DNA of 64,000 bases from NCBI RefSeq assembly GCF_963576615.1, contig NC_088708.1, positions 58,081,196-58,145,195 of the forward strand. The letters are read 5' to 3'. Positions within the stretch are counted from its first letter, which is position 1; each line of letters begins with the position of its first letter. This document shows, piece by piece, positions 3,201 to 64,000 of the stretch. This DNA is from Watersipora subatra (taxonomy: Eukaryota; Bryozoa; Gymnolaemata; Cheilostomatida; Watersiporidae). A program made the translations under genes and the position numbers. The notes under the pieces were generated by a model. The model worked only from the letters and a program-made list of their open reading frames with translations, was not told the DNA's origin and made no database searches.

Positions 3201-6200
3201 ATTAGATGAGCAAAAGGAAGTAGTGAACGCCTACTCAAAGGATCAAGTGATAAGGTATATGATCAGCGATGATTAAACATGTAGAAAAGACACATACGTC
3301 CAATGCAGGGGGTACATGAGAGCCCTGTGACACCCCAACTCGCACCCTGATTAAGCAGACAGCAGTCTATCATGGAAAGGAGAGCGGGTGAATTATCGTT
3401 GGCTTTCTCTCCAAAGCAAAATTTAGACTGATAACAGTATTGCAGTTCATCTGTCACATCTGTAATCAGTGGTGAAATGTCACACTATGGGGAGTATAAC
3501 TGAACAACTGTATCTGTAATCAGCGGTGAAACATCACACTATGGGGAGTATAACTGAACAACTGTATCTGTAATCAGTGGTGAAACATCGCACTATGGGG
3601 AGTATAACTGAACAACTGTATCTGTAATCAGTGGTGAAATGTCACACTATGGGGAGTATAATTGAACAACTGTATCTGTAATCAGTGGTGAAACATCGCA
3701 CTATGGGGAGTATAACTGAACAACTGTATCTGTAATCAGTGGTGAAATGTCACACTATGGGGAGTATAACTGAACAACTGTATCTGTAATCAGTGGTGAA
3801 ACATCGCACTATGGGGAGGATACCTGAACGACTGTTTACAAACCCGTTTCATCAACTGTTTGCTGTGAGATAAAACCTTACAAGAGCTCTATTATAATAA
3901 GTATATCAGAGTTTCTTGAATGAAGCTGTAAGATGCTGATGAGTTTTTAAATGTTTGCTATAGTCTGTAGAAACAACATTGTCTCTGCTTAGAGATGTAA
4001 TCGTATGTGTGACAGAGAGGTAACCATTTCTAAACTTCTACTTCCTTACCAACTAACGAAAGAACAAACAGGGTATACACAAGTGATACAGTGTACGTAT
4101 GTGTAAAATGAGGTACTGTAGGTAAGTTTATAAACTTGTCACATACCACTGATAGAATCTTCACATCTGTAGCCTACAAAACCTTCTGGACATTCGCAAA
4201 GGCTAGGCTGTTTGCAGACACCGCCATTTTGACAGCCAGGATGGCATATAGCTACAAAACATAAAAAATAATGATTACATCTATGGTCATATCGAATAAT
4301 AAAAATGCGGAATAAAAGGTCATGACCCCGAACACCAACTTACCAATATTACAATCGTCTCCTTCCCAACCATCACAGCAGCCATATTCCTCATAGCTTT
4401 CCATTCTGTAGAGAGTTGGTAATAAACTTTACAATGGTTTGGCACACTAGTTACGCAGACAACACAGAAACGTAAACCGCGCACGAATCACTGTGGGTAT
4501 GTAGGCTAAAGCTGAGCCTACAACCCAAAGGGTTTCTTTCATCGCTTGTAAAGTCTGGCAATAATAATGCCTTAAATAAAATAATATAACTAGTTACGAC
4601 ATGAAGAATAATTTTATTAGTTTCGTGTAATGTTTGAGCACACCTTGCATAATTCTATGAATACTGCACCATTTCAAAATTAAGTTAGGAAATCGTGTCA
4701 AAATATAATACGGTATTTATTAAAAAGTTTTATTGAAGTTTTAAAAATCAAATGTTGGTTATCACAAAGAATTAACATTTAACGTTACTGTTAGGTATTA
4801 TTTTTAATTGTAGGCTGGAAAATGGTACTTTAACATTTGTTCTAATTTTCTAATAATTTTCTAGATGTCATCTGCGTATGTTAGCCTGATCTCTATGTCA
4901 TACAGACTGGCAAACTGCAACACAGAATTGCTTGGAAATTGGCATGTAAAGTATCGAACTCTCAGTGAAAGTTTTACAAATCAAATTTTCAAAATTTAAT
5001 CTCATTTAAACCAAAATGCACATTGTTAAGAAAAATCTCCATTAGCCACCAAATTAATTTTTATGAAATTGCTTCGCTAAATATTCAAACCACGAGTCTT
5101 TTTATATTGAGGACTTTGCTGATTTTAAAACAGGCTCAATCGATTTGCGAAGGTTGATATTCCCTGAAGTGACTATTTTTAGAAATCTCTGTTGGCAAGT
5201 AGTGCAATGGTGCTTTTTACATGTGCCACAATCCTTAAGAAGAAAAACTTGTGTAGCTTTCTGTATTTCGTCACTTTGCATTTCATATATATATACATGA
5301 CTTGGGTTACTTTAATAAGTATATATTTCATTTCAGAGCTTCTTCTTCATGAAGGTGCAAAAAAAGCAAGGGACATTCATACAGTTTCAGAGCTTGTTTG
5401 TTTATTTTTATTTATTTTTTATTCTTGTGTTTGCCATCTTCATTTATACAATTAAGTAGATGATATATGTATATGGACATCTAACCATCTAACATGATGC
5501 CATGTAATAGTAACCCTGGGTATCTCAGCTAGTGAAATACTGTTTATATATTGAAGTGATGCAATAGAACTGCTATCTTTTAAAAGCTCTGTAAATTATA
5601 CAATGATAGCTTCATGGTGTTCACTTACTTTTCAAATATGCAATCAGGAGCTGATGCCGGACGCATTGACCAATCGTTGATCTCCTTCTGCAGCACATCC
5701 TTTGGCAAGTGAGAAACACCCGAAGCCTCTTTATTCAGTATAAAGTCATCCAAGACCATAACAACATAATTAGCGCAACTCTCAGTAACTGTTACTGGTC
5801 GGTATAGCGTATTTCGACACCGGTGGCTCCTGAGAAAATTAGTTTGCAAGCTAACAGCAAAAGAAAACAAAACTAAATGTTGTTCATCCAACAATAACCG
5901 GTTCAAATACTCAGATATCAAACCTTAGAATGCATCACTAAAAATCAACTGCAAATTAATATTATGTAACTTACTATGAGCATTATGAAATTGGTTAAAT
6001 AAATTATGAAATATTATGAATTATGAAAAATTGATGAAATTAAATTAGTGAATAAATAATTTACTTCATGAATAAATAAATTAATGATAAATGAAAATTA
6101 ATAAAATATTATGAAAAGAAAATAAATGAATATTATGTACTTACACAGCAGGGTCCTGGGCAATGGACGTACTCAAGATAAAAGGTACAATAGCTAGCAG

Positions 6201-6218
6201 GAGTGCTAGCCAATCCAT
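223..6218 (-). CDS. Secreted EMI-EGF-VWD domain protein, 5' part
   Basis: Eight exons chain in consistent phase on the minus strand: 6218-6145, 5829-5629, 4405-4344, 4251-4147, 2117-1927, 1077-927, 631-458 and 308-223, giving about 348 residues. Residues 1-20 are a signal peptide (MDWLALLLAIVPFILSTSIA). Residues 26-110 resemble an EMI module: cysteines near its start and the hallmark end GCCDGWEGDDC. Residues 113-147 are one EGF-like domain with six cysteines. Residues 160-335 are a von Willebrand type D domain, recognisable by TFDG near its start, GLCGNHD in exon 7 and FGNSW in exon 8. It is therefore probably an extracellular adhesive or matrix protein. The order EMI-EGF-VWD is not that of human VWDE, so I give no symbol. 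The exon 6 donor (GTAACA at 926) was chosen because it is the only one that keeps phase. How the gene ends below position 223 is unresolved; it may leave the window. Confidence 0.85.
1085..1275. repeat. Minisatellite, about 20-22 bp unit
   Basis: Imperfect repeats of ACAGACATGCCAACACCATA and variants, about nine copies, in the intron between exons 5 and 6 of the VWD gene. The open frames over it are repeat artefacts. Confidence 0.8.
2615..2925. repeat. Low-complexity TATACATG/TACACA tract
   Basis: Alternating purine-pyrimidine sequence rich in ATATATACATGTATG motifs, within the intron between exons 5 and 6/4 and 5 of the VWD gene region. Several short open frames here (Cys/His/Tyr-rich) come from the repeat and are not genes. 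Confidence 0.7.
3458..3836. repeat. 54-bp minisatellite, about 7 copies
   Basis: Seven tandem units beginning TCTGTAATCAGTGGTGAAA, differing by a few bases (ACATCG versus TGTCAC variants alternate). It lies in the intron between the EGF exon and the first VWD exon. Confidence 0.95.
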
Positions 6219-6912
6219 GTTTCTGCTCTTCTCTAGCAGCAGCACACAAGGTCACCCATCGCATCACTCAGGTTTTAATACAAGAAGGAAAAGTTGTTAA
6301 GGTTGAGAGAGCCAATCAGAGTTGCCTAGCCAAGTAACAGCTAGTTGAAGAGCTGCTCAACTGGCATTGGCAGCGCATCAGCTGTCCAGAAGTGATACTA
6401 CATTAGAGATAGTTTGAGGCCATTTGCGTACAACACATTCTCTTTCAAGTAGCCTCTTCAAACATATGTTGCCGGCATCAATTAATCAGCAGAGTCCAAG
6501 CGAGTATAGTTTTATTTTTGCTGTTGAAATATGATTCGAATAATTATTAAATAAAGGAATAAATTGCACAATACTGAGATTCAAAAGCAAAGGTGTTGGC
6601 AGAATTCCTTGAAAGCCCACTATTTTCTTGCACACGAGATACCAAGCTGCCATAATACAACTGCAAGAATGCAATAAAACCAGTATAAAACACACTCAAA
6701 AACGCTTTATAAAAACTTAGAGGAGAAATGTTGAAATTCTAAAACTGAAGAGTGCCATAAAGCAAAGTATAAAATAGAGGCGAAGCGCAAAAAAACTCTC
6801 TTCTCCGATCAAATAATAAAAAGACAGTTAGATGGCTTTTATAAATATTATCTGTGAATTAATCAACAAGCCATAGTATAGTATAAGTCTGCAGTTTCAA
6901 CAGATAAAATGT
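6219..6912. other. Intergenic: TDH 3' end and VWD-gene promoter
   Basis: Both flanking genes are on the minus strand. A TTTATT at 6511-6516 is a possible polyadenylation signal (AATAAA on minus) for TDH, about 400 nt past its stop. I see no other gene here. Confidence 0.5.
6271..6280 (-). promoter_or_regulatory. TATA-like box of the EMI-EGF-VWD gene
   Basis: TATTAAAACC on the minus strand lies about 55 bp upstream of the signal-peptide ATG at 6218. The spacing suits a short 5' UTR. The ATG itself has A at -3 (AAACATGG). Inferred from sequence only. Confidence 0.4.
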
Positions 6913-19566
<12,654 letters not shown>

Positions 19567-28368: not shown

Positions 28369-28377
28369 GATCGTAAT
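28369..28377. repeat. Left 9-bp target duplication of the MULE
   Basis: GATCGTAAT, identical to 39354-39362, immediately outside the inverted termini. Confidence 0.9.
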
Positions 28378-28440
28378 CGTTTTTTCTTAAGAAAGACTTT
28401 TTAGCAGCTGACGTTTTAGGCGCAAAATTCAGTAATCTCC
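28378..28440. repeat. Left inverted terminus of the MULE
   Basis: Matches the reverse complement of about 39292-39353: palindromic TTTCTTAAGAAA, then GACTTTTTAGCAGCTGACG and AGGCGCAAAATT-like sequence. Short for a MULE, whose terminal repeats are often longer than 100 bp. Confidence 0.85.
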
Positions 28441-28658
28441 CGCCTGATGACGATATATTTCCCGCCACGATCACTTCCATTTAGTACTTGTCGTGCGAAT
28501 GCAAGCTTACCGTTCGGTGCAGATCTCTGAACATAGTGACCGCATTTAGCTGTTATTTCTGTCATTCTACCCTGTGAGTTATTTAAAACACGTGGCTATT
28601 TCATGCTTTTATTTGGCTTTTTTGTTATCAAACATAGGTACAGGTATTCTTGCAGTGA

Positions 28659-31600
28659 ATGAAGTGCGCCATGTCCACAAAGCAACAGCTCATGTTTGCT
28701 GATAGCCTCTCAGACGCCCTATCACTCATCAAGGAACATGAAATAGAATATATGGTGAAGTATATAAGTTTTAATGGAAAACTCAGCAAACTCAGGAGCG
28801 ATTCTGAAAACAAACCTATATCGTTGCCAGGTCAGTACGATCTACATGTATTTTCTTGGTAGTTATCACGGAGTGTTTTTCTTACCAGGTAATCTTTGCA
28901 ATGTGTAGCGGCTGGACTGGATGTACGTGTAAGTGCACAAGACTTGTTAATATATTTCAATCTCTCAGTTTGGAAACGCACTTTATTTCATCATTGCCCA
29001 TTTTACGAATTCAATTGTAATGTGTCTGCTCGTGGGTGTAAAGGGACGTGTGCGCTATCCGGAGTGTTAATCAATAGTGACATTTTACAAACGATGGATG
29101 AGCCTTTCGACATGCAGATTTCTCTGCACTAGAGTCCTCAATTATTGGGTGGAATCTATGATCAAAATACTTTCATCTACAATTACAAAAGCAGCATTTT
29201 AATATCTTTAACTTCGTATTTTTTTCAGCAATTGCACATAATTTTTGATAAATAGGCTTTCTAATAGCTTAACTTTTTTCTAGATGTCCAGAAACGGAGA
29301 GTGGTCGCCTATCAGGGAAAGGCTGTTGTAAAGTTAGGATCAGTGACCCTAGCATGTCAGCATGGAGCAGACCATAATGCTGGAAAGAAGTTGAAATTAA
29401 AATTAGCTGTGAGTAAGCTTTATGTTTATGCTAAGGTCTATGTTTCTTATTTTTTGCAAGTAAAATCTGTAATAGCCAGAACATATAACGAACATACAAT
29501 CAAGGTTGTAATTCAGCAAATCAGGAACAATCACATTCACGCCCATAGTAGACATTCTGCCCGATTTAAGATGCTTTCAGACTATAGCAAACCATTGTCA
29601 TACTGTTTTATTTAATTTGTTCCAGTGTTGGCATTGCAAGGCATCAATTTCTAAATGAGAAGTACAAAAACCCATAGAAATTACCTAATGCAAACACCCT
29701 CTGGTAAAATTCATCAAAAGTTTGTATGCGTACTGTACATAATAAAATTCAGTAACAAAATAATACTTGAGTAATAATACAAACGAATACTTGGCAAATA
29801 GCATATCGGCATCTTTGTTATTTCAACGTAATCAGCACACCAACTGCCAAATTTTAATTTCAAGAACAATGTTTGCTGATATCGTATGCCAAAAAATGTT
29901 GTATGGTGAAGGCAAAAATACGTCGCCTGCCTTCCACACTGTACGATGATCAAATCGTATAGCAGGGTCTTCATAACCCGAAGGCGCACTATACATGTAA
30001 CAAAGAATCTGCTCAATTACTATTGACTAACTATTGTTTTTGTTGGTGTAAACTCAGATTAAATAATTTCAGATATAATGCTCAAACATATAATCAATGC
30101 TAATCAGCATACAGACGGTTCCCTACTTACGAACATTCGAGTTACGAACAACCCGTACATACGAACAGGTCTGCGCGTATGTCCGCCGCTAATACCGACG
30201 GTATTACCGACGTATTAGCGGCAGAAATAGGCACTACTCAGAAGCCCAATCCAGCATCCACCTTTCTCTGCCCAGTTCGTTGCAGCGCATAAGTGCGTGA
30301 ATGTATCTCCAGTGCGTAAAGAACTTTTTTATTTTTACTGTACGTATTGTAAAGGAATTTGCCGGCCTTTACTTTATTGGTTACCCTACTAATATAGCAC
30401 TGAAGCAACTTACGAACAAATTCACCTTACGAACAATCGTTCGGAACGTAACTCGTTCGTAGGTTGGGAACCGTCTGTATTTCTGAGGTACAATATTCGT
30501 GAGTATTGCAAATATGCGTTGTTGTAGCAACATAGTTTGCAAGGAGGTAACTTCCTGATGAAGTGTTCAATTTTGGATTTTTGTATTGTTAAATATCTTG
30601 TAGGCTGAGCAAACTCAGAATAAGGATCACGACTTCGAAAAGAAAAAAGTCTATATACAGGACTCATGGAAACTTAGCTGCCCTGCTAAAGCCCACATAG
30701 ATCGGCAAATAGTTATTACTGGATTTGAGGTAACTCATCAATAACAAATTCATAATTCAGATGGCCATCACAATTTTTGAGCAGGTCCAATGTATTTTAT
30801 CATTCCTTCGTGTCGCAGGCGCGTCCTTGCTCGATTACCGAGGATTATGTTCAACACTCCATTCTAAACTAAATGAACTGAATTAAATGGTTTGATTCCT
30901 ACTGATACATTTCAGCTTGACCACATGTGTGGCAGCCAGAAAGATAGGCACTGGCAATTAATTGCCTCATCTACGCATGCGTTGAAGATGGGACAATGTT
31001 CTCTCAAGGAGAGATTCATAATTAGCATTTCTCATGCATCTGAGCACCAAGGTCATCCAATTGGTGAGGTAAGCAAAACAATGTTTAAAAATCACAATGT
31101 GAATGCATCACTGTGCAGAATATAATGCTAATTTATATATAAATCTCAATGTTTGTCTTCCTTGCTTTTGTCTGTGCAGCTATAGAGTTTTAAGAACAAG
31201 AAACCCTCCCGTGAACCGGTTTTCAACTTTATCAATCGTTCATGGCTTCATGTTAAACACTGCAGCTAGTAGTTTTACGTGTGAAATCATACCGGAAGAA
31301 AAAGTGTTTGAGAATTTCCAGACGAAAAATGCATGCCGATAATGCTAAAACTCATATAGGCAACAAGACTAAGGCTGTGAAAATATGTTCCCGTTTATCA
31401 TGTTATTTTTTCATATGCTTACACAATGGCTTATATATATATGACCTGGTGTCAGCAACACCCTAGCAACATCCTTAAGGGTGTTGCTAATCTATATGCC
31501 TGGTCTATTTTATCTACCAATTTAAAACCCAATTTGCTCTCATTCATGCATCAATATATAGAATATCATTCAATATGTGATTTTCTCTTTAGCATTCAGG

Positions 31601-34600
31601 ATATCTCCCAATGGATAATCGAGTACAAGACCGTGTGACATATATAGTCAACAAGCTATATGTTACGCAAACAAAATTGGTTGCCAAGCATCTAGCTGAC
31701 TTTGTAGAAACCAATTTGTTTCACGGAAATCCGCCACCTAAATCTAATAGAAGGTTCTATCCATCAGCCAAAGAGTTAAAGAACTGTATAGATCGTGTCA
31801 CAGCTGCTAACCAGTAAGTTATCCAATGCCTGATCAAAACCTTTTAATGTCTAACCGTATAATGCCTATGCCATGAGCTCTTAAGCAAAATAACAGTGAG
31901 ATTTTACAATTCATCCATAGAGATTCAGTCGTGAAACAAAGTACTTTAATTTCATAAGGATGGCCAGATTGCTATAGATAAGCTTGACTTGGTTTCGCAG
32001 GGATGGAATTCTATAATATGCGGTTTATATTTTTGTGTTATCTCAAAGATATTGTTTGACTTTTCAGTACCCATTCTGATGACCAAGACAACGTTGCAGA
32101 GCTCCTCAGGCGCCTCGATCCAAACAATCGATGGAGTTTTCGAAAATCAACTGATACTGGAGAAAAGCTGATGCTTGTGCATCAGACCAGGGATCAGCAA
32201 CAACTTCTGTACAAATATGGCAACGAGATATGTTTACTTGACGCTACACACAAAACTACACGCTATGGATTACCATTGTTCTTCATCGTGGTAAAAGCTA
32301 ACGTTAATTATCAGATTATAGCTAGTTTTGTAGTCCTCGAAGAGACCGATGAAGCTATCAAAGAGGCGATAGCTGTAGTCAAGTCCTGGAATCAGTCCTG
32401 GCAGCCAAAGTCGTGGATGGTAGACTGCTGCGCTGCTGAAATATCAGCCGTCAGCACTATATTTCCTGGTAATCACATTACAGATTTTGTTATTCCATAC
32501 TGCATTGACTTAATGATCACATGCTATTGAAAATTTAAAAGGTGACGTGAGAAAGACATGTTTGCTCAGTACAGATTAGCTGCCAACATCCCAGGGATAA
32601 ATTGCTTAGTTTTCACATAGTTTTGTCTAAAGCTGTGATCTTGTAGATTGAGATTAATTAATGAAGATTTAGCCTGTTCGGCATGTGATGACCTTCCTGT
32701 TTCAAGGCGCAAATCATTGCTAAGATGTCATTCAAATTCAGTGTTAGAAAGAGTTAATAGTTAAAAGCATTTCACAGTAAAATCTTTTTCAGATTCTACT
32801 ATACTTGTGTGTGACTTTCACCGTCTTCAAGCCTGGAATCGTTGGTTGGTAAAGGGTACCAACAACATCAATAAAGATGTCCAAAAAAATCTAAAGAAAC
32901 TCCTTGGAGAAGTTGCTAAAAGCCAGACAGAGGGTAAGACAAAAAGCTCATCAATACTTCAATACAGCGCTATTGTCACTTCAAAAATGCCAGCCCTTCA
33001 TACTTTTTTCTTTCAAAAAAACATTTACTTGACTGCAACGTGGCAGGCTGTATATTAAATTCACTTGAATTTTGATTGACATATTTTAAAAGGAACATTA
33101 TATCGATACCAACTCTGGTATAAATGAGTTAGTTATGCAAATGCAAACTATCTCTGATTTGAAATGCTCAGGTAGAACAAGTTCCTATATGCGTGTACAC
33201 ACACATTGTGCAAAGACTGTTGTCCAATGTGCGTGCGCCCGCACATTTTGTGCACAAAGTAATTTGTGCTTAAAACCAAGCTACCATGTTCCCTCTCTAT
33301 TATAGCAATATACCTTCAGAATATAAAGGAGCTGCAAGGCAGCAAAGAATGGATAAACCACAAGAACGTACAAGCGTACTTCAACCAAACATGGTTTAGC
33401 AATGGAATGCACAAGGTGCGGTTGTCAGTACACTGATTAATTGGGTTAAAGAAGATGTTTATATTTATTTATTATTGTTCTGAAGAATGATTTGAAATAC
33501 TTTGAAACTTGATGTGAATTGTATTGTAAAGTTACAGAGCTCTATTGTAAAGCATCTATATTTATTCAAATTTTTTATTGACAGCAGCATAATTATGGAA
33601 AAAATTTACCTGCAAGTCCACGGTTGTTCTGGTTCAGATGAACTACACAGATGAAATATTTGCAGAGAATCATAGATTATAAATCCGAATTTAAAATGAA
33701 TTAGATTGATCTGGTTTTTTCTTTTCAAATCAGAGATGGGTGAAATGTTTTCGCCTCACAAGAGAGCTGAGGGCTGTCAACACCAACAATGGCATTGAAG
33801 CTATAAATCGGGCAGCCAAAGCTGAAATAGCTGCAGGAGCACGGGCACAAACTCTGACGGCAATGATGGGGAAACTTATGCGTTGGCTTGCAGCTCATCA
33901 CAAGAAGTAAGATTTGTAATCACCAGAAGTATGTCACACATAATAATGATTCTAATATCAAAGCTGATGCTGTGGTAAAAATAAGTACATATAAAAGTTA
34001 TTAAAAAAGACAAGTGTGTCCAAGTTTTGCATTTGTAGCTACAGTAGGACTGCCCTGCGATGATAGTTTCCTGCAACTATTTTTTAGGTATGTAGATAGA
34101 AATATAAGATTCAGCTCTATGTCAAGACGGTATGCAAAGGACATTCCAGCAGCTCTCCACAACAGACCCCATGACTTTGTGAAACATGTGATTAAAAGGC
34201 TGGAAAGCGCAAGAGAACTTTTATGCTCTAACTCACCTGAACAATATATAGTTGATGCTAAAAGTTCAATGCCATCATGTTCATGTGAGGATTTCTCACG
34301 TCACTCTTTCCCGTGCAAACACATCATCAGACATTGGTTTGATGAGGATGGGCAGTTATGCATTCCAAGCAATCTTACAGTTACCCCATGGATCTGCCTT
34401 GATGTCTGTGATGGTACTAAAGAAGATAATGCATACACACCTCCCACAAAGTTGTCTACATATACAAAGGCTATTCCACAGTGCTTCCCAAATGAGTTTA
34501 CTTCAGATGAAAGTACATTAGCAAAGTTACTTGGAAAAATCCGGGCGTTTGCGGATGACATCAAAAGTTGGACTTACAACTGTGTTGAGAAGGATGTCGC

Positions 34601-37319
34601 GAAAACCGTCTTGCAGAGATTAGAAGAAATGCAGCCTTTATGTGTTGGAACCAACATCAAAGCCAACCTAATCGTGCGACCTTCAACAAGTGGTAAACAA
34701 CGTCGACTCACTCTCAGAGATGGGGGTCTGAAGAGGAGGCGCAGGATGCCACTTAAATACCGACGTCGTTTAGCTGGAATTACATCAGTTCCTCTTGCGG
34801 AAACATTGGACGACTGCTTTCCAACTAACCAGTATTCTGGTCCCGAATTGGAATTGGTTGGAAGGCAAGTTATAATTTCAAAACAGTTTTCCTTTTCTCC
34901 TGCAGATTTCATGGCAGCGACGCTTCTCCTTCAAAAAGCATCGTTACTTATTACCAATGCCCACGAAGAAACTGAAGAAATAGCAATGGAATCAATCCTT
35001 GCTCAAAAAAAATCTTGAGATTTGAGTTGTAAATTGGTTACTCACTTAGCTTTTTTATATCTACCCATTTTTTTACTTAAAGAATACAGTGATAATGCTT
35101 GCTGTATTTATCACCTACAGTGAGAAGAAAAAGTACCCACAAGATCCGAACAGCAGCATTCAGATAAGCAGTGTGTGGCTGGCAGATGATGACATGGAGC
35201 TTGCAGTCAATCTCATCAGGTTCCAATGGCCCGATATAAAAACTCAAGCGCCGTGTTACATTCAACGTCCAGGAGGTTTTGATACTGCGAATCATTCTAA
35301 ATATGTTCAGGTAATATGCCCTGTTAATGAATGATGAAGCAGTCTGTTAATCTGGTTTGTGGATGTAGTTACTGTAATCATTCCATGATAACGGCTTCAT
35401 TTAACAATTCATTTGATCATTTTCAATCATATGGCGAGGATCCACTACCAGATATCTTAGCTTTCATTATCTTTTTTAAGTCAGGTATATGTATGACTAT
35501 ATTGTCAAGTGATGGCAAGTTCCAATTGTTTTACAGATCCTGCACACTAATGGGAACCATTGGCTGGCTTGCACCAACATTGGATCCAGTACATTTGTAC
35601 GATTATTTGATTCTCTTGCCTTTGACCTTGACGATCAAGCTCTGAAAGGGATTGCCAGTAAGTGTTTGTGCAAACAAGATACAAAGCTTGCTCTTACTCA
35701 ATTTTTAAAGGTGTACATCGTGATTGTACACCACATCACAAGATAGAGACTGATATTTAAACCTAACAATGATTTGTCTTGCCTAAATTCATAAAGCGAA
35801 GTCGGGTAAAAATTGACATTGAATAATCACTTGGCCGACTCACAGGAGATTGATCATGCCCATAACTTGGCTACCAGATCATGCCTTAGATCTAAATTTC
35901 TGGTTCTCATGAATTCTTGGAGAGAAGTCACAAATGCTGCTCGGATCAACACTTTGCATCTATAGCACAGGCAGATAAACATAGTGGTATTGTATTTTTA
36001 TCAAGAAAAGTGTTACCTCACAGACCTGCGCGTTTGCTAATTAAATACATTTATGTTATGCACCATCTGGATACATTAGTATTCATTCATTTTTTCAAAA
36101 CTGCAGTTTGTACTTTGGTTTTACCTGCAGGTTTACACAAGACCCTGGCACCACATCTGCGGCTCCGATGGGAAAGTGTGCAGAGGCAAGATGGAGCCAA
36201 TGACTGCGGGCTATTTGCAATCGCTTTCTTGGTAGAGACACTATTTGGGTTCAACCCGGCCAAGGTATAAGGTTATGTGGATTTAATTTATGACATTCCA
36301 CTTTTGTTTTGATGAAAGGAAACATTGTTTTTTATATATTAACTTCTGGAAACCAACTTTCACATTTGCAGCAATTTGAGTTCAGAAATCAATTTTGTCC
36401 ATCGTTCCCTATGCATTCAACTATATGTACAATGACTAAATAACAATCTTTTGATGATATGTTTCTATGCTGACTTGCAGATAAAACCCAAGTAAGAAGG
36501 GTAAGAGCAATTACTGCTGTGCTACTGCACTTAAGAGTGGCTTGGTTTCAATATAACCCTTATGTGACCTTGCACTGCATAATCGGTCATTTACGTGTGC
36601 CAACATTGACTCGCTAATGATGTGTACCACGCTTATAACATATTTTCAGATTAAGATTCCTAATATTAACCCAACCTAATAATCTGTTCTGTTAACAACC
36701 TGTGTGGTATTTATCTTCCTACTATTTCTAATTTTAAGTAGAGTAGACACTCTTACAAAGTAATCCATTCCAGCAGTGTTAACGTTATAAGGAATTTACG
36801 TTATTCAAATAGTAAAATGCATGTGGATTGCCTGATCTGTTCCAAGATATCTCTAAACTCACCCCTTTGGTCATACAGATTAGTAAATCACATTTGTACT
36901 CAACAGGTGACTTTTGACCAGAAACTGTTACGCATGCATTTGTTCAACTGCCTGAAAGAGGGAGAGTTTACACGGTTCCCCAAGTGCTTAGAGGAAAAAA
37001 GGCGGGTTCGCTCAAAATACGTGACAGTGAAGGTAAAAAAAACCCTGTGCATCAGTTTCTGAATTATTGTGGAGGCAGAAAATATAAAGATAAGCAATGT
37101 TCAACATATCAACTTTTTCGTATAAATATGCATAGTTTGAATTTTTGTTCGGTCTTTCAGGTTTACTGCAAGTGCAGATTGACATGGCGAAGAGATGGAG
37201 AGGAAGGGGTGGAATGTGACCAGTGTGGGGACTGGTATCATTCCCATTGTGTGGGACTACCCATTGGCTACACCATTGGGAAACATATCATCCCCTACAG
37301 ATGTGACAGCTGTATTTAA
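28659..37319 (+). CDS. MULE transposase with SWIM, Ulp1 protease and PHD finger
   Basis: Fifteen exons agree in phase throughout: 28659-28830, 29284-29408, 30604-30729, 30916-31068, 31593-31813, 32068-32468, 32793-32933, 33306-33415, 33734-33906, 34088-34864, 35121-35310, 35537-35657, 36131-36264, 36907-37032 and 37161-37319, giving 1,042 residues. A stop (TGA) directly precedes the ATG. Residues 1-270 resemble the N-terminal region of animal MULE/CARF-like proteins. The transposase core has candidate acids D324 (LLDATHKTT), D385 (WMVDCCAAE) and E505 (NTNNGIE), plus C406/H409 in CDFHRLQAW. A SWIM finger is C605-x-C607...C617-x-H619. Residues 815-948 form a C48 (Ulp1/SENP) cysteine protease: W819, H871 (GNHW), D888, Q923 and C929 (QDGANDCGLF). 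Residues 993-1041 are a PHD-type finger (C993, C995, C1009, C1012, H1017, C1020, C1038, C1041). Intron 10 uses a GC donor (AG|GCAAGT). It likely acts in the nucleus to cut and join the element; the SUMO-protease and PHD roles are inferred. Confidence 0.92.
30112..30477. mobile_element. TA-flanked MITE inside MULE intron 2
   Basis: The inverted ends begin CAGACGGTTCCCTACTTACG (left) and CAGACGGTTCCCAACCTACG (right, read inward), flanked by TA on both sides. It is 366 bp without coding, as for non-autonomous Tc1/mariner/pogo elements. It must be younger than, or have travelled with, the host MULE. Confidence 0.88.
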
Positions 37320-39059
37320 AAGCGGATGCCATATCAAGCAAATAGCAAAAGAATTACTTTGTATGTACAATATAGTACTGCATCACAATGTGCACCTGGT
37401 ACATCCATAATGAATGCAAATGTTGCAATACCAATGTAAGGGTTGTGAAAGATAACCTTTTACCAATCAAAAGATACATGAAATTTCTTTCGATATAACT
37501 GCCCTTTAGTGTATGGTAAAATAATGTGCAGTCTTTTGGCTGTTATACAATGAATCTGCATTGATTGCATATTTCATAGGTGTGTGCTTGGAAACTTAAG
37601 AGATTTTATGGGTGTGGATATGCTATAATATGATTATAAATTCCTCGTAATAATTGTTGGATATTTTCGTGCAAATAGAGGTTCTTGCCATTCCCAAGCT
37701 GAGCTCAATGTGCAAATACTGTTTCCTAATATGTAACTTTGTTTTAGATTTCCTCTCACAAATGAGTCTTGTCTCAATAATTGGCTCAAGGTCATGTCCA
37801 GAAAAGACTCACTTTCACACACCACAGAATCTGTTCTGAAAATTTTCGATTCTACCACTGACCATTACATTGCATCAGGAGATAAATGGATGCCTAGTCA
37901 AAAAAGTGATGGTCGAAACCGCTGTTGCCGACAGACTACAAGTTGAATTCACGGACTTAGTCACAATTAAAGAAAAGACGATTATATATACACTTCGCAA
38001 GAACCATTCTGTTGACATAAACTACCAATCTTGGCTTACCATTTCTGTCACTGGTGATGTGTTTAGCTCATGGTCTTTGAAATTTTGTTTGAATTTTAGA
38101 TCTTGACAATTACAAAGCATAATGTTCATATGCTATACTAGATTTTGTGTGAATATTCTGTGTATTTATAACCGGGTGTATATGATTATGAAATTGTAAT
38201 AGTTGTTACGAAATCTAAAGAGTTATCAGTACAAACTCTGATGGAATTCTAATCGGCATCTATCTGTTCATACATACTATATTGTCATCGAAATATGAGT
38301 CAGCTTTATATAAAAAATGAAACAGTGTTAAAGACTGAATGATATGCGAATAGCTTTACATGATATGCTATCTAACTTTTCCTATTTTTTGTTAGTTACA
38401 TCACCACCCCTTCATAGTTTCCTTATTTACCACAAACAATGTAAAAGCTATTGTTTTCATGTGAATTGTTATAAACGTTTTAGGTTTAACTAATTTTATT
38501 TTGAGAATTTTTTCAAGAAATTTTAAAGTTACTTTGGTGTGAGTGCGCTCTATACTGCATGCGAATGGTTCTGTTTACTGAAGCGTTCTGAACTTCAAAT
38601 AAAGATAGCATCTAGAATACAAATGTATTTAGTAAATGGATGTATATACTGCACCAGCAAAAACAAAGATTTTGATATTGTATATGTGAGTTATAATTTA
38701 TCGGTGATCACCGTCAACAGTTTTCAACAGTAATAATACAATAATTTTCAATAAAAAGCCAAAACAGCATTTACTTTAAGTTTTCTTCTGGAGAAACAAC
38801 CCCTTGAAAAGATGACATCTGGTATTTTTGGAGGATAAACAACTCTGTAAAAGTAGTTACAACCTCTGCAGCAAGCAGAGGTTGTAGGCACTTGATTTTT
38901 GTGCAATCATAGCCTTATAGGCTAGGAAAATCGCCAAAATAATCTTCCTCTTAATTTGAAATACATGGAGTTGCTATAATGTTCCTATTATCAATGCTTG
39001 CGTATGTCTATTATAGAATTTCCCGCCTGGTGACGACAATTACGAAATAGGTAGGTATC
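37320..39059. other. MULE 3' non-coding region
   Basis: About 1.7 kb between the transposase stop and the subterminal repeats. It has AATAAA at 38598-38603 and 38750-38755 as possible polyadenylation signals. Short open frames (37870-38106, 38539-38733) lack any domain or splice logic. Confidence 0.5.
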
Positions 39060-39353
39060 CTCTCGACTGAACAACATGCTATGATTGGCCGGCGAACGGT
39101 AACACTAATTTATATTAACTTTCCCGCCTAAAAACGTCGGCTGCGAAAAAGTCTTTTGATCAAAACAGCCACATGATTGGCTGACGAACGATAAGGCTAA
39201 TTTATATTAACTTTCCCGCCTAAAAACGTCAGCTGCGAAAAAGTCTTTCGCTCAAAACAGCCACATGATTGGCTGATGAACGGTAACGCTAATTATACTA
39301 AATTTCGCGCCTGAAAACGTCAGCTGCTAAAAAGTCTTTCTTAAGAAACTCCC
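39060..39353. repeat. Tandem subterminal repeats with right MULE terminus
   Basis: Three units with period 93 then 90 bp (ACGTCRGCTG cores at 39134, 39227 and 39317), each holding the terminal motif in the orientation of the right end, e.g. GCCTAAAAACGTCAGCTGCG then AAAAAGTCTTTC, and a spacer ACATGATTGGCTGANGAACG. The spacer also precedes the first unit. The left end has one copy only. They may be repeated transposase-binding sites (inference). Confidence 0.85.
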
Positions 39354-39362
39354 GATCGTAAT
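39354..39362. repeat. Right 9-bp target duplication of the MULE
   Basis: GATCGTAAT, identical to 28369-28377. Confidence 0.9.
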
Positions 39363-40166: not shown

Positions 40167-40299
40167 GAAGCTAATTGGCGACAAGGATTTCTCTCTTGAA
40201 CAGTTACAAAGAGTTTTGTTCAGATTTTATCATTGATAAAATCGATACAAAGAGTTCTAGTTTATTACAAGAGTAACTGTTCAAAATTGCACCACTACA

Positions 40300-43200
40300 A
40301 TGGCAGAAGTAGCAGACCTGATCAAGCTAATGCAGAAGCAGCAGGAGGACCAGAGACAGCAGCAAGAAGAGCATAGACAACAGCAGCATGAGGAGTTCAA
40401 GCAGCAACAAGAGGAATACAGACGTCAGCAAGATGAAAGAATGGAGGAGAATAAGAAACTGATGGAGCTACTACTACAAAACCTACAACGGAAACAAGAA
40501 ACAGCTGCAACCGCTGTTCCAGCCTTCCCAGGTTTTGACCCAACAGCAGAGCTACTAACAGATTACATAGACAGATTCAACACATTCATTGCAGCACATT
40601 CTATTCATCAAGACAAGATTGCTGGCACTTTTCTCACCAACCAACAGCCTACACTCTACAAGCAGCTTAGTAATATGGCAGCTCAGCTTTCAACACCCAA
40701 GCAGATCAACGACCTCAACATGGATGAAATACTGGAATTTCTCAAAGACCAGTATGACCCTAAGCGCTTCATTGTTAGAGAGCGTTACAAGTATTGGAGT
40801 GACATGCAGAGGAAACCTGGAGAAACTATTCAAGAGTTAGCTGCTAGAATTCGTCAGGATGCAACTACATGTGCCTTCATAGACATTACAGATCCATTAG
40901 ATGAGGCTCTCAGAACAAGATTTATCTGCTCTGTAAACAATGAAGCAGTTCTCAAATCTCTCTTCAAGGTCAAGGACAATGAACTCAACTTCAACAAAGC
41001 TATACAGGTAGCACAGGAAACAGAAGAAGCAGTTAAAGTTGCCAAAGAGACAGTTTATGGAAACTCGTCTAAAGTCAACAAGGTTGCTCAACAGAAATCA
41101 AGATACAAACCAATCCAGAAAAACAACTCTACACCTGACAAGCAGAAGGAAGGAAAGCTATGCTACAGATGTGACCGAACTAACCATACAGCGGATGACT
41201 GCAGATTCAAAGCAGCCACCTGCAACTTTTGTTCTAAACAAGGTCACATAGAAAGAGCATGCAAGAAAAAGAAATCATCTGCAGCAGAAAAACCAGTAAA
41301 GATGATAGAATGCACATCAACCAAGATGGTGAAACTTGCTGAAAACATCAAACTGGAGGGAGACAACTTCACACTTGAACTGGACACTGGAGCATGTGAC
41401 AACTTCATCTGTAAATCAATATGGGAGAAGCTAGGAAAGCCAAACCTAAAACCTACTACAGTTAACTACAAATCAGCCTCAGGACATCTTATAGAGACGC
41501 TTGGCAGATGTGAGCTAACTGCCCAATTGGATGCACAGAAAGAAGTCAGACTACCATTTGTGATTAGTGCTGTACAAGATCTCAACCTACTAGGAAGAAC
41601 TGCTATACAGCAACTAGGCATCTCTATTGATGACAAGCTACAACAGAACCTTGTATCAACAATCACAGAGAACCAGCCAGATGGGAGGTTACAAATCAAG
41701 TGTAAGGAGATGTGCAAAGAATTTCCAGAAATATTCAAAGACGAGCTAGGATGTCTCAAGAACTTTGAACTAGAGATAAACTTCAAACCTTCAACAAAGC
41801 CAGTCTTCTGCCGACCCAGACCAGTTCCTATTGCCTTGACAGAAGAGCTCAACCAAGCATACGAAGCAGGTGTAGCTAAAGGCATATGGGAACCAACTCA
41901 ATTCAACCAGTATGGAACACCAGTTGTACCTGTACGCAAATCTACAACAGGTCAAGCTGCAGGGAAGATCAGAGTATGTGGAGACTACTCCAAGACTATC
42001 AATAATCAGCTAGAAACACATAGGAAACCTATCCCACTACCAGAAGATCTAATCAGAAAACTAGGTGGAGGCTATTGCTACACAAAGATTGATTTAGCAG
42101 ATGCCTACAATCAAATATTGTTGGCACCAGAAAGTCAACGACGACTAGCACTATCAACACACCGAGGAGTACTACTACAGAAGAGGTTGCCCTTTGGCAT
42201 AAGCTCAGCACCAGGGTATTTTCAAGAAATCATGGAGCAACTGACACAAGACCTCCCAGGAGTAGCAGTATACCTAGATGATATACTAGTGAGTGGAGCC
42301 AATGCAGAGAGCCATCTACAAAACTTACGTCGACTTCTTCAAAGATTAGAAGAAAGAGGGCTCAGATGTAGAAAAGACAAGTGCTGTTTTGCTCAACCTA
42401 CAGTAGAGTATCTGGGACACAAACTCACTTCAAAGGGAATCACTAAAGGAAAGAAGGCAGATGCAGTACAACAGATGCCAGTCCCAACAGACTTAACTCA
42501 GCTAAGATCTTTCTTAGGAGCTACACAATTCTACAGCAAGTTCATACCCAATCTGTCACAACTCACAGGACCATTGCACAAACTGACACGCAAAGGAGAG
42601 ACCTGGAAGTGGGGCACTGAACAAGAAAAGAGCTTCAACAAACTGAAAGATATGCTATCAACTGATAGTGTCTTAGCACACTTCAACCCAGATCTTGACA
42701 TTGGAATCTCATGTGATGCTTCAGAAACTGGACTGGGAGCTGTACTATTTCATCGTTATCCGGATGGAAGTGAGAGACCAATAGCCAATGTTTCAAAAAC
42801 ACTGACCAGCACACAGAGGAAATATGGACAAATACAAAAAGAAGCTCTCTCAATCATGTTTGCTCTAAAGAAGTATCACCAGTACCTGTATGGTCGACGG
42901 TTTATCTTGGTAACTGACCACAGACCTCTTCTCACACTTCTAGGACCTACCAAAGGAGTTCCAGCTCTAGCAGCCAACAGACTAGCAAGATGGGCACTGG
43001 TACTAAATCAGTATGACTACACCATAGAATACAGATCTACCCAGCATCATCAAAATGCAGATGTCCTCTCAAGACTGCCAGTTGGACCTGATAAAGAGTT
43101 TGATGCAAGAGAAGATGAGGATGATGTTGATTGTACACCACTTCCTACAGGATACTCTCCCAGTCAGCTGCTGAATGGAAGACAGATGAGATGCAAGATT

Positions 43201-43665
43201 GACACCCTATTGCCATCACCCGCACACATAGCACAGTTTCATCAATCCAGAGAAGTCAACCGATCGGCAGAAAAGACAGTTAGCAAGATACACAGCTACA
43301 ATCTTGGAGCACCATGCTATGCCTTGTATCATGGACCTAGACGCAACAGACAACCTAGATGGGTTCCAGCCATTGTTACTAAGATATATGGAACTCGTAG
43401 TCTCAATGTCAAAGTGGTACCAAAGGGACCTACTTGGAGAAGACATGTTGAACAACTCAGACCAAGATACTCAACAGAAGAAGATCAAGACCCTGGAGAT
43501 AAACCTGATATAACAGAGGAGACAAAACTGCAACTACCAGCCCCTACAACTGTAACAGAGCAACCTCCGTCTAGAAGAAGACCACGCAACCCTCGTCTAC
43601 CTGATGGAGATGAGTATAGCAGAGACAAACCCCGAAGGTCTAAGAGAACCAGAAAGAACCTTTAG
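40300..43665 (+). CDS. Gag-pol fossil frame of the LTR element
   Basis: One frame of 1,121 codons. Its recognisable parts in order are a Gln/Glu-rich N-terminal coiled stretch, a gag-like region, two CCHC zinc knuckles (CYRCDRTNHTADDC and CNFCSKQGHIERAC), a pepsin-type protease motif (LDTGA), reverse transcriptase with YLDD, RNase H (CDASETGLGAVL, TDHRPL) and a C-terminal integrase-tail-like segment. These place it in Ty3/Gypsy (Metaviridae). Treated as a fossil; as a whole the element appears broken. Confidence 0.93.
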   Translation: MAEVADLIKLMQKQQEDQRQQQEEHRQQQHEEFKQQQEEYRRQQDERMEENKKLMELLLQNLQRKQETAATAVPAFPGFDPTAELLTDYIDRFNTFIAAHSIHQDKIAGTFLTNQQPTLYKQLSNMAAQLSTPKQINDLNMDEILEFLKDQYDPKRFIVRERYKYWSDMQRKPGETIQELAARIRQDATTCAFIDITDPLDEALRTRFICSVNNEAVLKSLFKVKDNELNFNKAIQVAQETEEAVKVAKETVYGNSSKVNKVAQQKSRYKPIQKNNSTPDKQKEGKLCYRCDRTNHTADDCRFKAATCNFCSKQGHIERACKKKKSSAAEKPVKMIECTSTKMVKLAENIKLEGDNFTLELDTGACDNFICKSIWEKLGKPNLKPTTVNYKSASGHLIETLGRCELTAQLDAQKEVRLPFVISAVQDLNLLGRTAIQQLGISIDDKLQQNLVSTITENQPDGRLQIKCKEMCKEFPEIFKDELGCLKNFELEINFKPSTKPVFCRPRPVPIALTEELNQAYEAGVAKGIWEPTQFNQYGTPVVPVRKSTTGQAAGKIRVCGDYSKTINNQLETHRKPIPLPEDLIRKLGGGYCYTKIDLADAYNQILLAPESQRRLALSTHRGVLLQKRLPFGISSAPGYFQEIMEQLTQDLPGVAVYLDDILVSGANAESHLQNLRRLLQRLEERGLRCRKDKCCFAQPTVEYLGHKLTSKGITKGKKADAVQQMPVPTDLTQLRSFLGATQFYSKFIPNLSQLTGPLHKLTRKGETWKWGTEQEKSFNKLKDMLSTDSVLAHFNPDLDIGISCDASETGLGAVLFHRYPDGSERPIANVSKTLTSTQRKYGQIQKEALSIMFALKKYHQYLYGRRFILVTDHRPLLTLLGPTKGVPALAANRLARWALVLNQYDYTIEYRSTQHHQNADVLSRLPVGPDKEFDAREDEDDVDCTPLPTGYSPSQLLNGRQMRCKIDTLLPSPAHIAQFHQSREVNRSAEKTVSKIHSYNLGAPCYALYHGPRRNRQPRWVPAIVTKIYGTRSLNVKVVPKGPTWRRHVEQLRPRYSTEEDQDPGDKPDITEETKLQLPAPTTVTEQPPSRRRPRNPRLPDGDEYSRDKPRRSKRTRKNL

Positions 43666-49900: not shown

Positions 49901-50435
49901 GATATTATAGCAGATCACCAGCATATTACCTGCTATTTACATTAGTACAAAAATTGGAACTTTTCGCAAGCTTTTAATGTTCACAAGTTCACCGAGCTCA
50001 CAAAATTGATAAACATTTCTGCTAAGAGGAAACCTTGTTTCTAGCATTTATCCTTCTTATTTGCATAGTTTATGTTAATCACTGGAATCCATAAAAAGGT
50101 TTCGTGATAGTACATTCTGGGATTAAGTAAACCTTTTGAAAACAGGATATAGTGTCTCCGCCTTGTACATTATCAATCAGAGCTGTTAGCATTACTGTCT
50201 CATTTTATGAAAATTTTGGTTTGTACTTTTACATAAAATTGCATAAAATAATTAGTTTTGCAGTAAAAACTGACGGAAAATGTGTTAGAATACCTCGTAA
50301 GGCAGTAGTCAATATTCTTACTAAAGCATTTCAATAGCAAGTTCTTATATTTTGCTTTAAATAAATATTCATATGTCAATGCTCAGTTACCACCACTCAT
50401 ACGTATGAGAACATTCTAATTTTTATAGATAAAAG
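43956..50435. other. Gene-poor AT-rich region
   Basis: No convincing exon on either strand. It contains a 60-bp, three-copy repeat at about 47165-47325 (TTTTTTACACAGANATGT) and a 33-bp doublet at 47813-47873 (GATACACCAGAGTNTTTTAG). A dispersed repeat (TCGCAAGCTTNNAATGTT and flank) occurs near 46590 and 49960. Short frames such as 47327-47632 look random. Confidence 0.55.
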
Positions 50436-51569
50436 ATGGCGGGAGGAAACATAATAGGCAGCCAGAAAGAAATGACAGCAGTTATTAATAATCTAAAGGA
50501 AAGTCGAGTACTTGACAAAGCTATCGATACTCTTTCGTTAGAGGAATCTTACTCAGTCAAACTTCTTAACCTCAACACCAAGATGGTTAATCTGCAATAT
50601 TCTCGTCTGCAAGGAAACGTGAGTAAAATTAAAACGAATTTACCCGCTCAACAGATATCGGTTATGAAAACGCTAGAATCTGAAGGAAGATTTAAGCCCG
50701 AGAATCCAACAGCATCATCTAGCAATAAAAGTAAAATAGCGGCTGCCACTAAACGATTGAAATTTGCGAGTCCTTGCAGGCGAGCGGTCAGCGCTATGCC
50801 AAGACTAGGAAACTCTTTAGATGAGGCAGCAAACGAGGAAACAACTTCAAAACAACATAACTCAAAAAGACGTTCCATAGTTGAAGAAAATGGAGATAAA
50901 TTTAATGGTGTCCATAAAAAAGTTCGTCCGCAAACAACATCGGAAACCGTGCAATTTGTCGCAAATGTTACAGATGATCTCAATGAGCGGAAGACTCGCC
51001 CGAGCACAGCCCAAATTTTAGAAAGAATTTCCACAGCTCAGAAGGCAAGAAAGAACTTACGTCGGCAAACAACATACAGCTGTCATGATGGAAAAGAGCA
51101 GCACGGAAGTGGCATAGCCGGAGACGCATTCGGCCCAAGTCCATATGAAGTTCGTCGCACTAACTATTTGGAGAATGAACGAAGTATAACGCAAAAGCTG
51201 GTTGCTAGAAAAACTGATTTTATGAACGAAACAAAAAAGTTGGTAGCGGACAACCCGAGTGATTATGAAATGCGACCGGAAAGGACAGAGGAAGTCATAA
51301 ACTCAATAGACAGCATGGCGGTCAGACCAGGTATCGAAGTAAACAAGCTTAGAGTTGCTAACTGTAGCAGGGCTATAATCCAGCGTGTTGATTCCGCTTT
51401 ATTAAAACAATTTGCTGAAAATAGAAAACGCCGATGTCTGCCTTTTGATGTCGTACTTATCGATCCAGTTGATGTGAATATATTAGGGAAGGTTAAATTC
51501 AAACCCACGTTTAATACGGACTGTTGCAATAGGTCTAAGGTGTCATTTAAAGCTGCTGCCGAAGTATAA
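50436..51569 (+). CDS. Intronless gene, unknown 377-residue protein
   Basis: A single open frame with a good start context (AAAGATGGCGGG) and a stop at 51567-51569. The protein is basic, Ser/Thr/Lys/Arg-rich and mostly disordered in appearance. Residues 35-80 could form a helix (LSLEESYSVKLLNLNTKM). There are RPSTAQILERISTAQKARKN at about 188-207 and a more ordered, hydrophobic C-terminal part (FDVVLIDPVDVNILGKVKF). No signal peptide, membrane segment or zinc motif is seen, and I do not recognise a family. Length, clean frame and start context argue for a real gene. An intronless gene amid intron-rich neighbours may be a retrocopy or a germline-type gene; alternatively 54.3 kb could be its further exon, though no phase-compatible donor was found. 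Confidence 0.75.
   Translation: MAGGNIIGSQKEMTAVINNLKESRVLDKAIDTLSLEESYSVKLLNLNTKMVNLQYSRLQGNVSKIKTNLPAQQISVMKTLESEGRFKPENPTASSSNKSKIAAATKRLKFASPCRRAVSAMPRLGNSLDEAANEETTSKQHNSKRRSIVEENGDKFNGVHKKVRPQTTSETVQFVANVTDDLNERKTRPSTAQILERISTAQKARKNLRRQTTYSCHDGKEQHGSGIAGDAFGPSPYEVRRTNYLENERSITQKLVARKTDFMNETKKLVADNPSDYEMRPERTEEVINSIDSMAVRPGIEVNKLRVANCSRAIIQRVDSALLKQFAENRKRRCLPFDVVLIDPVDVNILGKVKFKPTFNTDCCNRSKVSFKAAAEV

Positions 51570-56282: not shown

Positions 56283-64000
<7,718 letters not shown>

Follow-up and report, generated by a model that had tools for sequence, protein, structure and literature searches.

Structure of the Element and Its Target Site

The window, that is the whole 64,000-bp stretch of Watersipora subatra DNA that was analyzed, contains a complete transposable element with one predicted gene of 15 exons. 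The features of the locus are as follows.

28369-28377, unstranded: left copy of the 9-bp target duplication (TSD), GATCGTAAT, exact
28378-39353, + strand: whole element, 10,976 bp with the nested 366-bp MITE counted; borders from the TSD and sister copies
28378-28417, + strand: left inverted end, pairing without mismatch with the right end over 28383-28417
28659-28830, + strand: exon 1, start codon
29284-29408, + strand: exon 2, beginning of the ALS2CR8-like region; 6-bp in-frame length difference between copies
30112-30477, unstranded: nested MITE, 366 bp, in intron 2; TA on either side; inverted ends of 26 nt, 92%
30604-30729, + strand: exon 3, ALS2CR8-like
30916-31068, + strand: exon 4, ALS2CR8-like
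31593-31813, + strand: exon 5, ALS2CR8-like
32068-32468, + strand: exon 6, MULE / ZSWIM1-3-type RNase H domain with presumed catalytic Asp D324 and D385
32793-32933, + strand: exon 7, CDFHR motif, transposase core
33306-33415, + strand: exon 8
33734-33906, + strand: exon 9, TNNGIE motif with presumed catalytic Glu E505
34088-34868, + strand: exon 10, SWIM zinc finger and linker
35125-35310, + strand: exon 11, where the Ulp1/SENP-like region begins; acceptor placed by comparison with NCBI protein P0001
35537-35657, + strand: exon 12, motifs NGNHW and LFDSL with the presumed His and Asp of the protease
36131-36264, + strand: exon 13, motif RQDGANDCG with the presumed Gln and Cys of the protease
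36907-37032, + strand: exon 14
37161-37319, + strand: exon 15, PHD finger, stop codon
39081-39340, + strand: 92-bp minisatellite, 2.8 units, preceding and running into the 3' inverted end
39314-39353, - strand: right inverted end, pairing without mismatch with the left end over 39314-39348
39354-39362, unstranded: right copy of the 9-bp TSD, GATCGTAAT, exact

An earlier note on this DNA had described a whole Mutator-like element with a perfect 9-bp target duplication, matching inverted ends and an unbroken gene. The duplication is indeed exact on both sides, and the borders that it sets together with the sister copies enclose a whole element whose gene is unbroken. The target sequence occurs once more in the window, at 8648; two fixed positions would share 9 bp exactly by chance with a probability of 7.6e-6. 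The left border is fixed independently, because 13 matches of a genome search with the left end begin at query base 10, the first base past the target duplication. These 13 are among 24 of the 42 other matches that start at query bases 9-14; the rest comprise 5 inverted-end matches from base 15 and 13 matches starting elsewhere.

The claim of matching inverted ends stands for their inner part, complementary at 35 of 35 positions, but not for the outermost five bases, which are mismatched (CGTTT on the left, CTCCC on the right). Two upstream units of the 3' minisatellite repeat the inner part of the end, one over 27 bases (96%) and the other over 26 (92%), and a 94-bp array, also of 2.8 units, is found in all three other full-length copies. 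None of these three copies contains the MITE. The MITE in intron 2, the 3' minisatellite, the probable protease and the PHD finger were not mentioned in the earlier note.

Gene Model and Domain Organization of the Protein

The predicted exons join without a stop, with AG/GT at every intron, and encode 1042 aa. The fifteen in-phase exons proposed before are retained, with the acceptor of exon 11 moved: a start at 35083 (in-frame model, 1056 aa) was replaced by 35125 on comparison with the NCBI predicted protein P0001. The same gene model applied to the sister copy C2a yields a protein identical to P0001, and the frame and all splice sites are kept in the three other full-length copies. Extension of exon 10 to the TGA at 35016-35018 was rejected: the segment 34869-35017 has diverged by 6.8%, as the non-exon part, and carries a 2-bp deletion in C6a and C2a. 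An exon starting at 35966 is ruled out by a 2-bp length difference between copies.

The protein starts with an ALS2CR8-type region, which is followed by an RNase H core of the DDE type, a SWIM finger, what is probably a protease of the Ulp1/SENP type, and lastly a PHD finger. The MULE profile PF10551 matches with an E-value of 2.1e-11 (44.5 bits, cut-off 27.6) and, together with the inverted ends and a 9-bp TSD, inside the 8-10 bp range of the superfamily, bears out the Mutator-like assignment. Two further Pfam families score, PF21056 (ZSWIM1-3) with the RNase H domain and PF15299 (ALS2CR8, also named CARF) with the N-terminus. Both Asp and the Glu of the core are conserved in relatives. The nearest fold of the core is the ISCth4 transposase (6xg8, 6xgx, 6xgw; identity 14%), a member of the IS256 family. 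That match is confined at most to residues 265-614, and therefore the other parts of the protein have no counterpart there.

The PHD finger lies just over the Pfam cut-off (PF00628, E 2.6e-5, 24.6 bits, cut-off 24) and matches the PHD of PHF2 at 2.2e-5. A Ulp1/SENP-type (C48) protease is presumed from sequence, the assignment being weak for the single protein. Its region contains H871, D888, Q923 and C929 in the order His-Asp-Gln-Cys, and a profile built from the corresponding regions of four relatives matches SENP1 at 5e-11. The whole-protein Pfam scan gave no C48 match, exon 13 alone matched Pfam C48 weakly (E 0.24), and the best solved-structure match to this region was also weak (E 0.079). 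The predicted structure has a mean pLDDT of 59, dropping below 50 across the greater share of the protease and PHD region; a prediction from 2 sequences only reached a pLDDT of 30.

Relation to Rehavkus and Other Known Systems

Taken together, these features identify the element, with little room for doubt, as an autonomous cut-and-paste DNA transposon of the MULE superfamily and, by published structural marks, of the Rehavkus type. Rehavkus is a MULE-like group with hosts given as Arthropoda/Annelida, and its marks are a 9-bp TSD, a TIR of 26-400 bp, a PHD finger and a minisatellite before the 3' TIR (PMC6446971). Compared by description only, the element has the same TSD length, a TIR within this range, the PHD finger and the 3' minisatellite. 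The TSD, the finger and the minisatellite point to this type. One published example, Rehavkus-1_TC of Tribolium, is 9.5 kb long with a 164-bp tandem repeat in its termini (PMC6446971, PMC10218199); the element considered here has a similar size, 11.0 kb. Two differences should be mentioned. The host belongs to Bryozoa, outside the Arthropoda/Annelida entry in PMC6446971, and would extend the listed hosts of a sparsely described MULE type. The passages on Rehavkus consulted in PMC6446971 and PMC10218199 mention neither an ALS2CR8-like N-terminus nor a SWIM finger or Ulp1-type protease; the word "ulp1" is absent from the main text of the former.

Other animal MULEs share some of these features. 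Phantom and Muta elements have a MULE-type DDE core and a TSD of 8-10 bp. The mosquito element Muta1 excises and reinserts in a yeast assay, and Muta5 has a subterminal tandem repeat (PMC5225508). Arthropod MULEs have also been surveyed (PMC13359780), so the earlier statement that intact MULEs with multi-exon genes are rarely described in animals, set against the relevant parts of these two papers, was too strong. Phantom is listed with FLYWCH, SWIM or no extra domain (PMC6446971), whereas our element has a PHD finger; "PHD" occurs twice in the main text of that paper, both times for Rehavkus.

A second scenario, possible if somewhat unlikely, is a MULE family apart from Rehavkus, such as an ALS2CR8/ZSWIM-related animal clade, that gained the PHD finger, the protease and the 3' minisatellite independently. 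It agrees with the relatives of the protein. Ten were returned, four of them without a name; the named ones, from Hydra, Ostrea, Lingula, Exaiptasia and a tick, are "uncharacterized" or "hypothetical", and none is labelled Rehavkus. A PHD-like end was seen in only two of the seven relatives scanned (P0002, unnamed, and P0004, from Hydra), both times under the Pfam cut-off, and a minisatellite after the ORF is also tabulated for aphid Phantom elements (PMC6446971). However, the 9-bp TSD occurs here along with a PHD finger and with a minisatellite ahead of the 3' TIR, a combination that fits Rehavkus as described in PMC6446971. By these marks the family is probably of the Rehavkus type; it is a new representative of an already known transposon type. 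When viral contigs were scanned with the family alignment, 22 stretches fitted a pattern, and tblastn showed no relative among them.

Sister Copies, Insertion Sites, and Selection

The genome search with the left end yielded further copies, including the second copy that the earlier note had called for. Four full-length copies occupy four loci: the window copy, C2a, C5a, and C6a. C2a and C6a differ at 4 of 10,706 bases (99.96% alike), and each is flanked by its own exact 9-bp duplication. The window copy has diverged by 4.3-4.4% from the other three and is an older member of the family, not the youngest. The family has jumped recently, because sister copies are almost identical to each other; the recent mobility suggested earlier is thus upheld through these copies. 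The closest relative of the window copy in exon 10 (98%), C1:53142527, is a fragment covering only element bases 3479-8192 (9 kb fetched).

Eight insertions entered the TSD tally: the duplication is exact in six, matches at 7 of 9 positions in one and is absent in one. Three of the four full-length copies (window copy, C2a, C6a) have exact and mutually different TSDs. Of the short copies, which carry internal deletions, four could be followed to both ends, three of them with exact duplications of their own; two more of the six fetched (C5t and C11t) have no right end in the fetched stretch and stand outside the count. Of 11 larger copies fetched, eight (C10a, C2b, C3a, C1b, C9a, C9b, C4c, C9c) are old or carry deletions and did not enter the TSD and Ka/Ks counts.

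C2a is inserted in a repeat, and four other fetched copies of this repeat are empty at that point, with a single copy of the target. These are paralogous empty sites for a sister copy, of the kind that had been proposed as a check. The flanks of C5a are homologous to those of C2a at 96-99%, and C5a has no target duplication (empty site AAATCACGTCCATTAG, filled site AAATCACGT-G[element]T-CCATTAG). Both facts might suggest that segmental duplication or ectopic recombination, and not transposition, gave rise to the copies. However, the shared flank belongs to a repeat present in at least 40 copies at 98-100% identity (40 of the 95 candidates scored). Within this repeat the two insertion sites are separated by 129 bp, and neither is interrupted in the four fetched repeat copies. 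The three different TSDs point the same way. This origin, very improbable overall, is contradicted for C2a and C6a and may apply to C5a.

The protein is under purifying selection, as the earlier note had supposed: Ka/Ks between the window copy and the other full-length copies is 0.184-0.195, against 1.24 and 0.68 in a wrong-frame control. Such strong constraint would also be expected of a domesticated host gene caught by chance between old transposon ends and selected for the host, but this is scarcely credible given inverted ends at all four loci, exact TSDs at three of them, the near-identical pair, the empty site and the fact that the constraint is seen between copies of the element themselves.

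Possible Mechanism and Origin of Domains

For the transposon itself, the single protein would be the transposase. Its DDE core (D324, D385, and E505 in the window copy) would excise the element and insert it at a target cut with a 9-bp stagger. The ALS2CR8-like N-terminus, the SWIM finger, or both may recognize the inverted ends as well as the end-like motifs of the 3' minisatellite. The PHD finger could direct the complex towards histone tails. SUMO or a related tag might be stripped from the transposase or from host silencing proteins by the Ulp1-type domain.

ZSWIM1/3 and ALS2CR8 gave their names to the Pfam families that score with the RNase H domain and the N-terminus. Those names come from host genes, whereas here the domains reside in a mobile element together with PHD and protease-like parts. 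A broader reading, speculative and rather unlikely, is that the element is a still-living representative of an ancient type of animal transposase, the kind that gave the host genes ZSWIM1/3 and ALS2CR8/CARF, and that its protease and histone reader counter SUMO-dependent silencing and choose chromatin. If true, these two domains would explain the recent spread. A literature search found no paper joining a Mutator-like transposase with Ulp1 and a PHD finger; a search of titles only found none on a MULE origin of ZSWIM/ALS2CR8, by which absence is not proved. "ZSWIM", "ALS2CR8", and "CARF" do not occur in the available text of PMC10027918 on transposon-derived transcription factors, and the available text of PMC13326412 mentions the repeat content of Watersipora subatra without the phrase "DNA transposon".

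An active-looking transposon is thereby linked to the domains from which the ZSWIM1/3 and ALS2CR8 families take their names. With near-identical full-length copies whose insertion is documented, transposition could be tested, as could what a protease-like domain and a histone-reading finger do when joined to a transposase. The short copies would have moved in trans.

Copies and insertion sites

The MULE-type element of the cheilostome bryozoan Watersipora subatra inserts with a 9-bp target-site duplication, has spread recently and encodes a protein under constraint. The copy in the window (28378-39353) is bordered on either side by the 9-bp GATCGTAAT. Its inverted ends, 28383-28417 and 39314-39348, are complementary at 35 of 35 bases, the outermost 5 bases of each end being unpaired; the same asymmetry (left CGTTT, right CGCCC) is seen in the three other full-length copies, C2a, C5a and C6a. 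An exact 9-bp duplication, different in sequence every time, borders six of the eight insertions that were read at both ends. In C7t, a short internally deleted copy, 7 of 9 bases of the duplication match. One of the eight, the full-length C5a (fetched stretches L011/L012), has no target duplication and gained two additional bases where it joins the flanking DNA.

The C2a and C5a sites are 129 bp apart, within two copies of one young repeat (L015:1-500, that is, C2:20351242-20351741, plus 39 further places). This repeat has at least 40 copies at 98-100% identity, C2a's own counted (40 of 95 candidates scored). The C2a site is empty, unbroken and with a single ACTTGTCGG, in all four of the further repeat copies that were fetched. 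The C5a site is unbroken in the same four copies and likewise at the C2 locus.

The window is C1:58081196-58145195 of a 784-Mb assembly. Searches of this assembly, in which all place counts are lower bounds, found the left end in at least 43 places (40 of 61 candidates scored), the right end in at least 43 (40 of 85) and exon 10 in at least 19 (19 of 19), eight of the last, with the window counted in, at 95-100% identity. Eleven larger copies were fetched, three full length (C5a, C6a and C2a) and eight deleted or old. Between C6a and C2a, 4 of 10,706 gap-free positions differ; C5a is 99.3% identical to these two, and the window copy is 95.6-95.7% identical to all three. The copy in the window is thus one of the older ones in a recently mobile family. 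Remoter exon 10 matches (70-74% identity) lie in eight places, three at C8:54.19-54.28 Mb and five at C10:13.1-22.3 Mb, and possibly represent a second related family.

Element bases 255/700-701 are joined in all six short copies fetched, and five of these also have the junction 1042/7048, by which exons 3-11 were lost; the sixth, C5t, has no match past base 892 within its fetched stretch. These common junctions suggest that the six descend from a single deletion derivative that moved in trans.

Gene structure and selection

Features of the window copy
28659-37319, gene of 15 exons and 1042 codons, no stop, AG/GT at every intron
30112-30477, MITE of 366 bp in intron 2, TA on both sides
39081-39340, 92-bp minisatellite, 2.8 units, extending into the 3' end

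The genes of C2a, C5a and C6a have 1040 codons each and are also stop-free. Between these and the window copy, Ks is 0.068-0.069, Ka 0.013 and Ka/Ks 0.184-0.195 (0.12-0.30 against C6a over 500 codon bootstraps); reading the exons in both other frames, as a control, gave 1.24 and 0.68. The window copy diverges by 2.4% in exons and by 5.1-5.2% in the remainder. Against C6a it has 58 indels, 49 of them not multiples of three, and just one is exonic (6 bp), as counted with exon 11 starting at 35083, the first model, rather than at 35125, the final one. The protein predicted by NCBI for C2a is identical to our 15-exon model of that copy, so the predicted boundaries agree with NCBI to the extent that a protein can show. 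The nested MITE, with ends CAGACGGTTCCCTAC.../...GGGAACCGTCTG, is not in C2a, C5a or C6a.

Relation to known elements

Rehavkus, as described in PMC6446971, is a MULE-like group with a 9-bp TSD, TIRs of 26-400 bp, a PHD finger in the protein and, preceding the 3' TIR, a minisatellite; very few elements are known, from arthropods and annelids. Our element has all four of these structural marks and is a candidate Rehavkus by its structure. The 9.5-kb Rehavkus-1_TC is described, in PMC10218199, with a 164-bp tandem repeat in its ends. Here, two upstream minisatellite units match part of the inverted end, one its inner 27 bases at 96% and the other its inner 26 at 92%. Recent activity of a MULE in an animal is no novelty by itself, because the animal MULE Muta1 is mobile in yeast, with TSDs of 8-9 bp (PMC5225508), and arthropod MULEs have been surveyed (PMC13359780).

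By analogy with families, the DDE core would excise and join the element, the N-terminal region and/or the SWIM finger may read its ends, and the end-like motifs in the minisatellite may help this reading. Domain names hint that the PHD finger might read histones and the protease-like part might deSUMOylate.

Neighboring sequences

About 900 bp past the element, an open frame (40261-43665, + strand, 1134 codons) has reverse transcriptase and RNase H domains in Pfam, weak aspartyl-protease and CCHC matches below the cut-off, and no Pfam integrase match; it looks like a fragment of an LTR-type retroelement. Another frame (50433-51569, + strand, 378 codons) has no Pfam match at E 0.01. The window also contains three tandem arrays.

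Tandem arrays
3458-3835, 54-bp units
9975-10478, 19-bp units
59752-60372, 73-bp units
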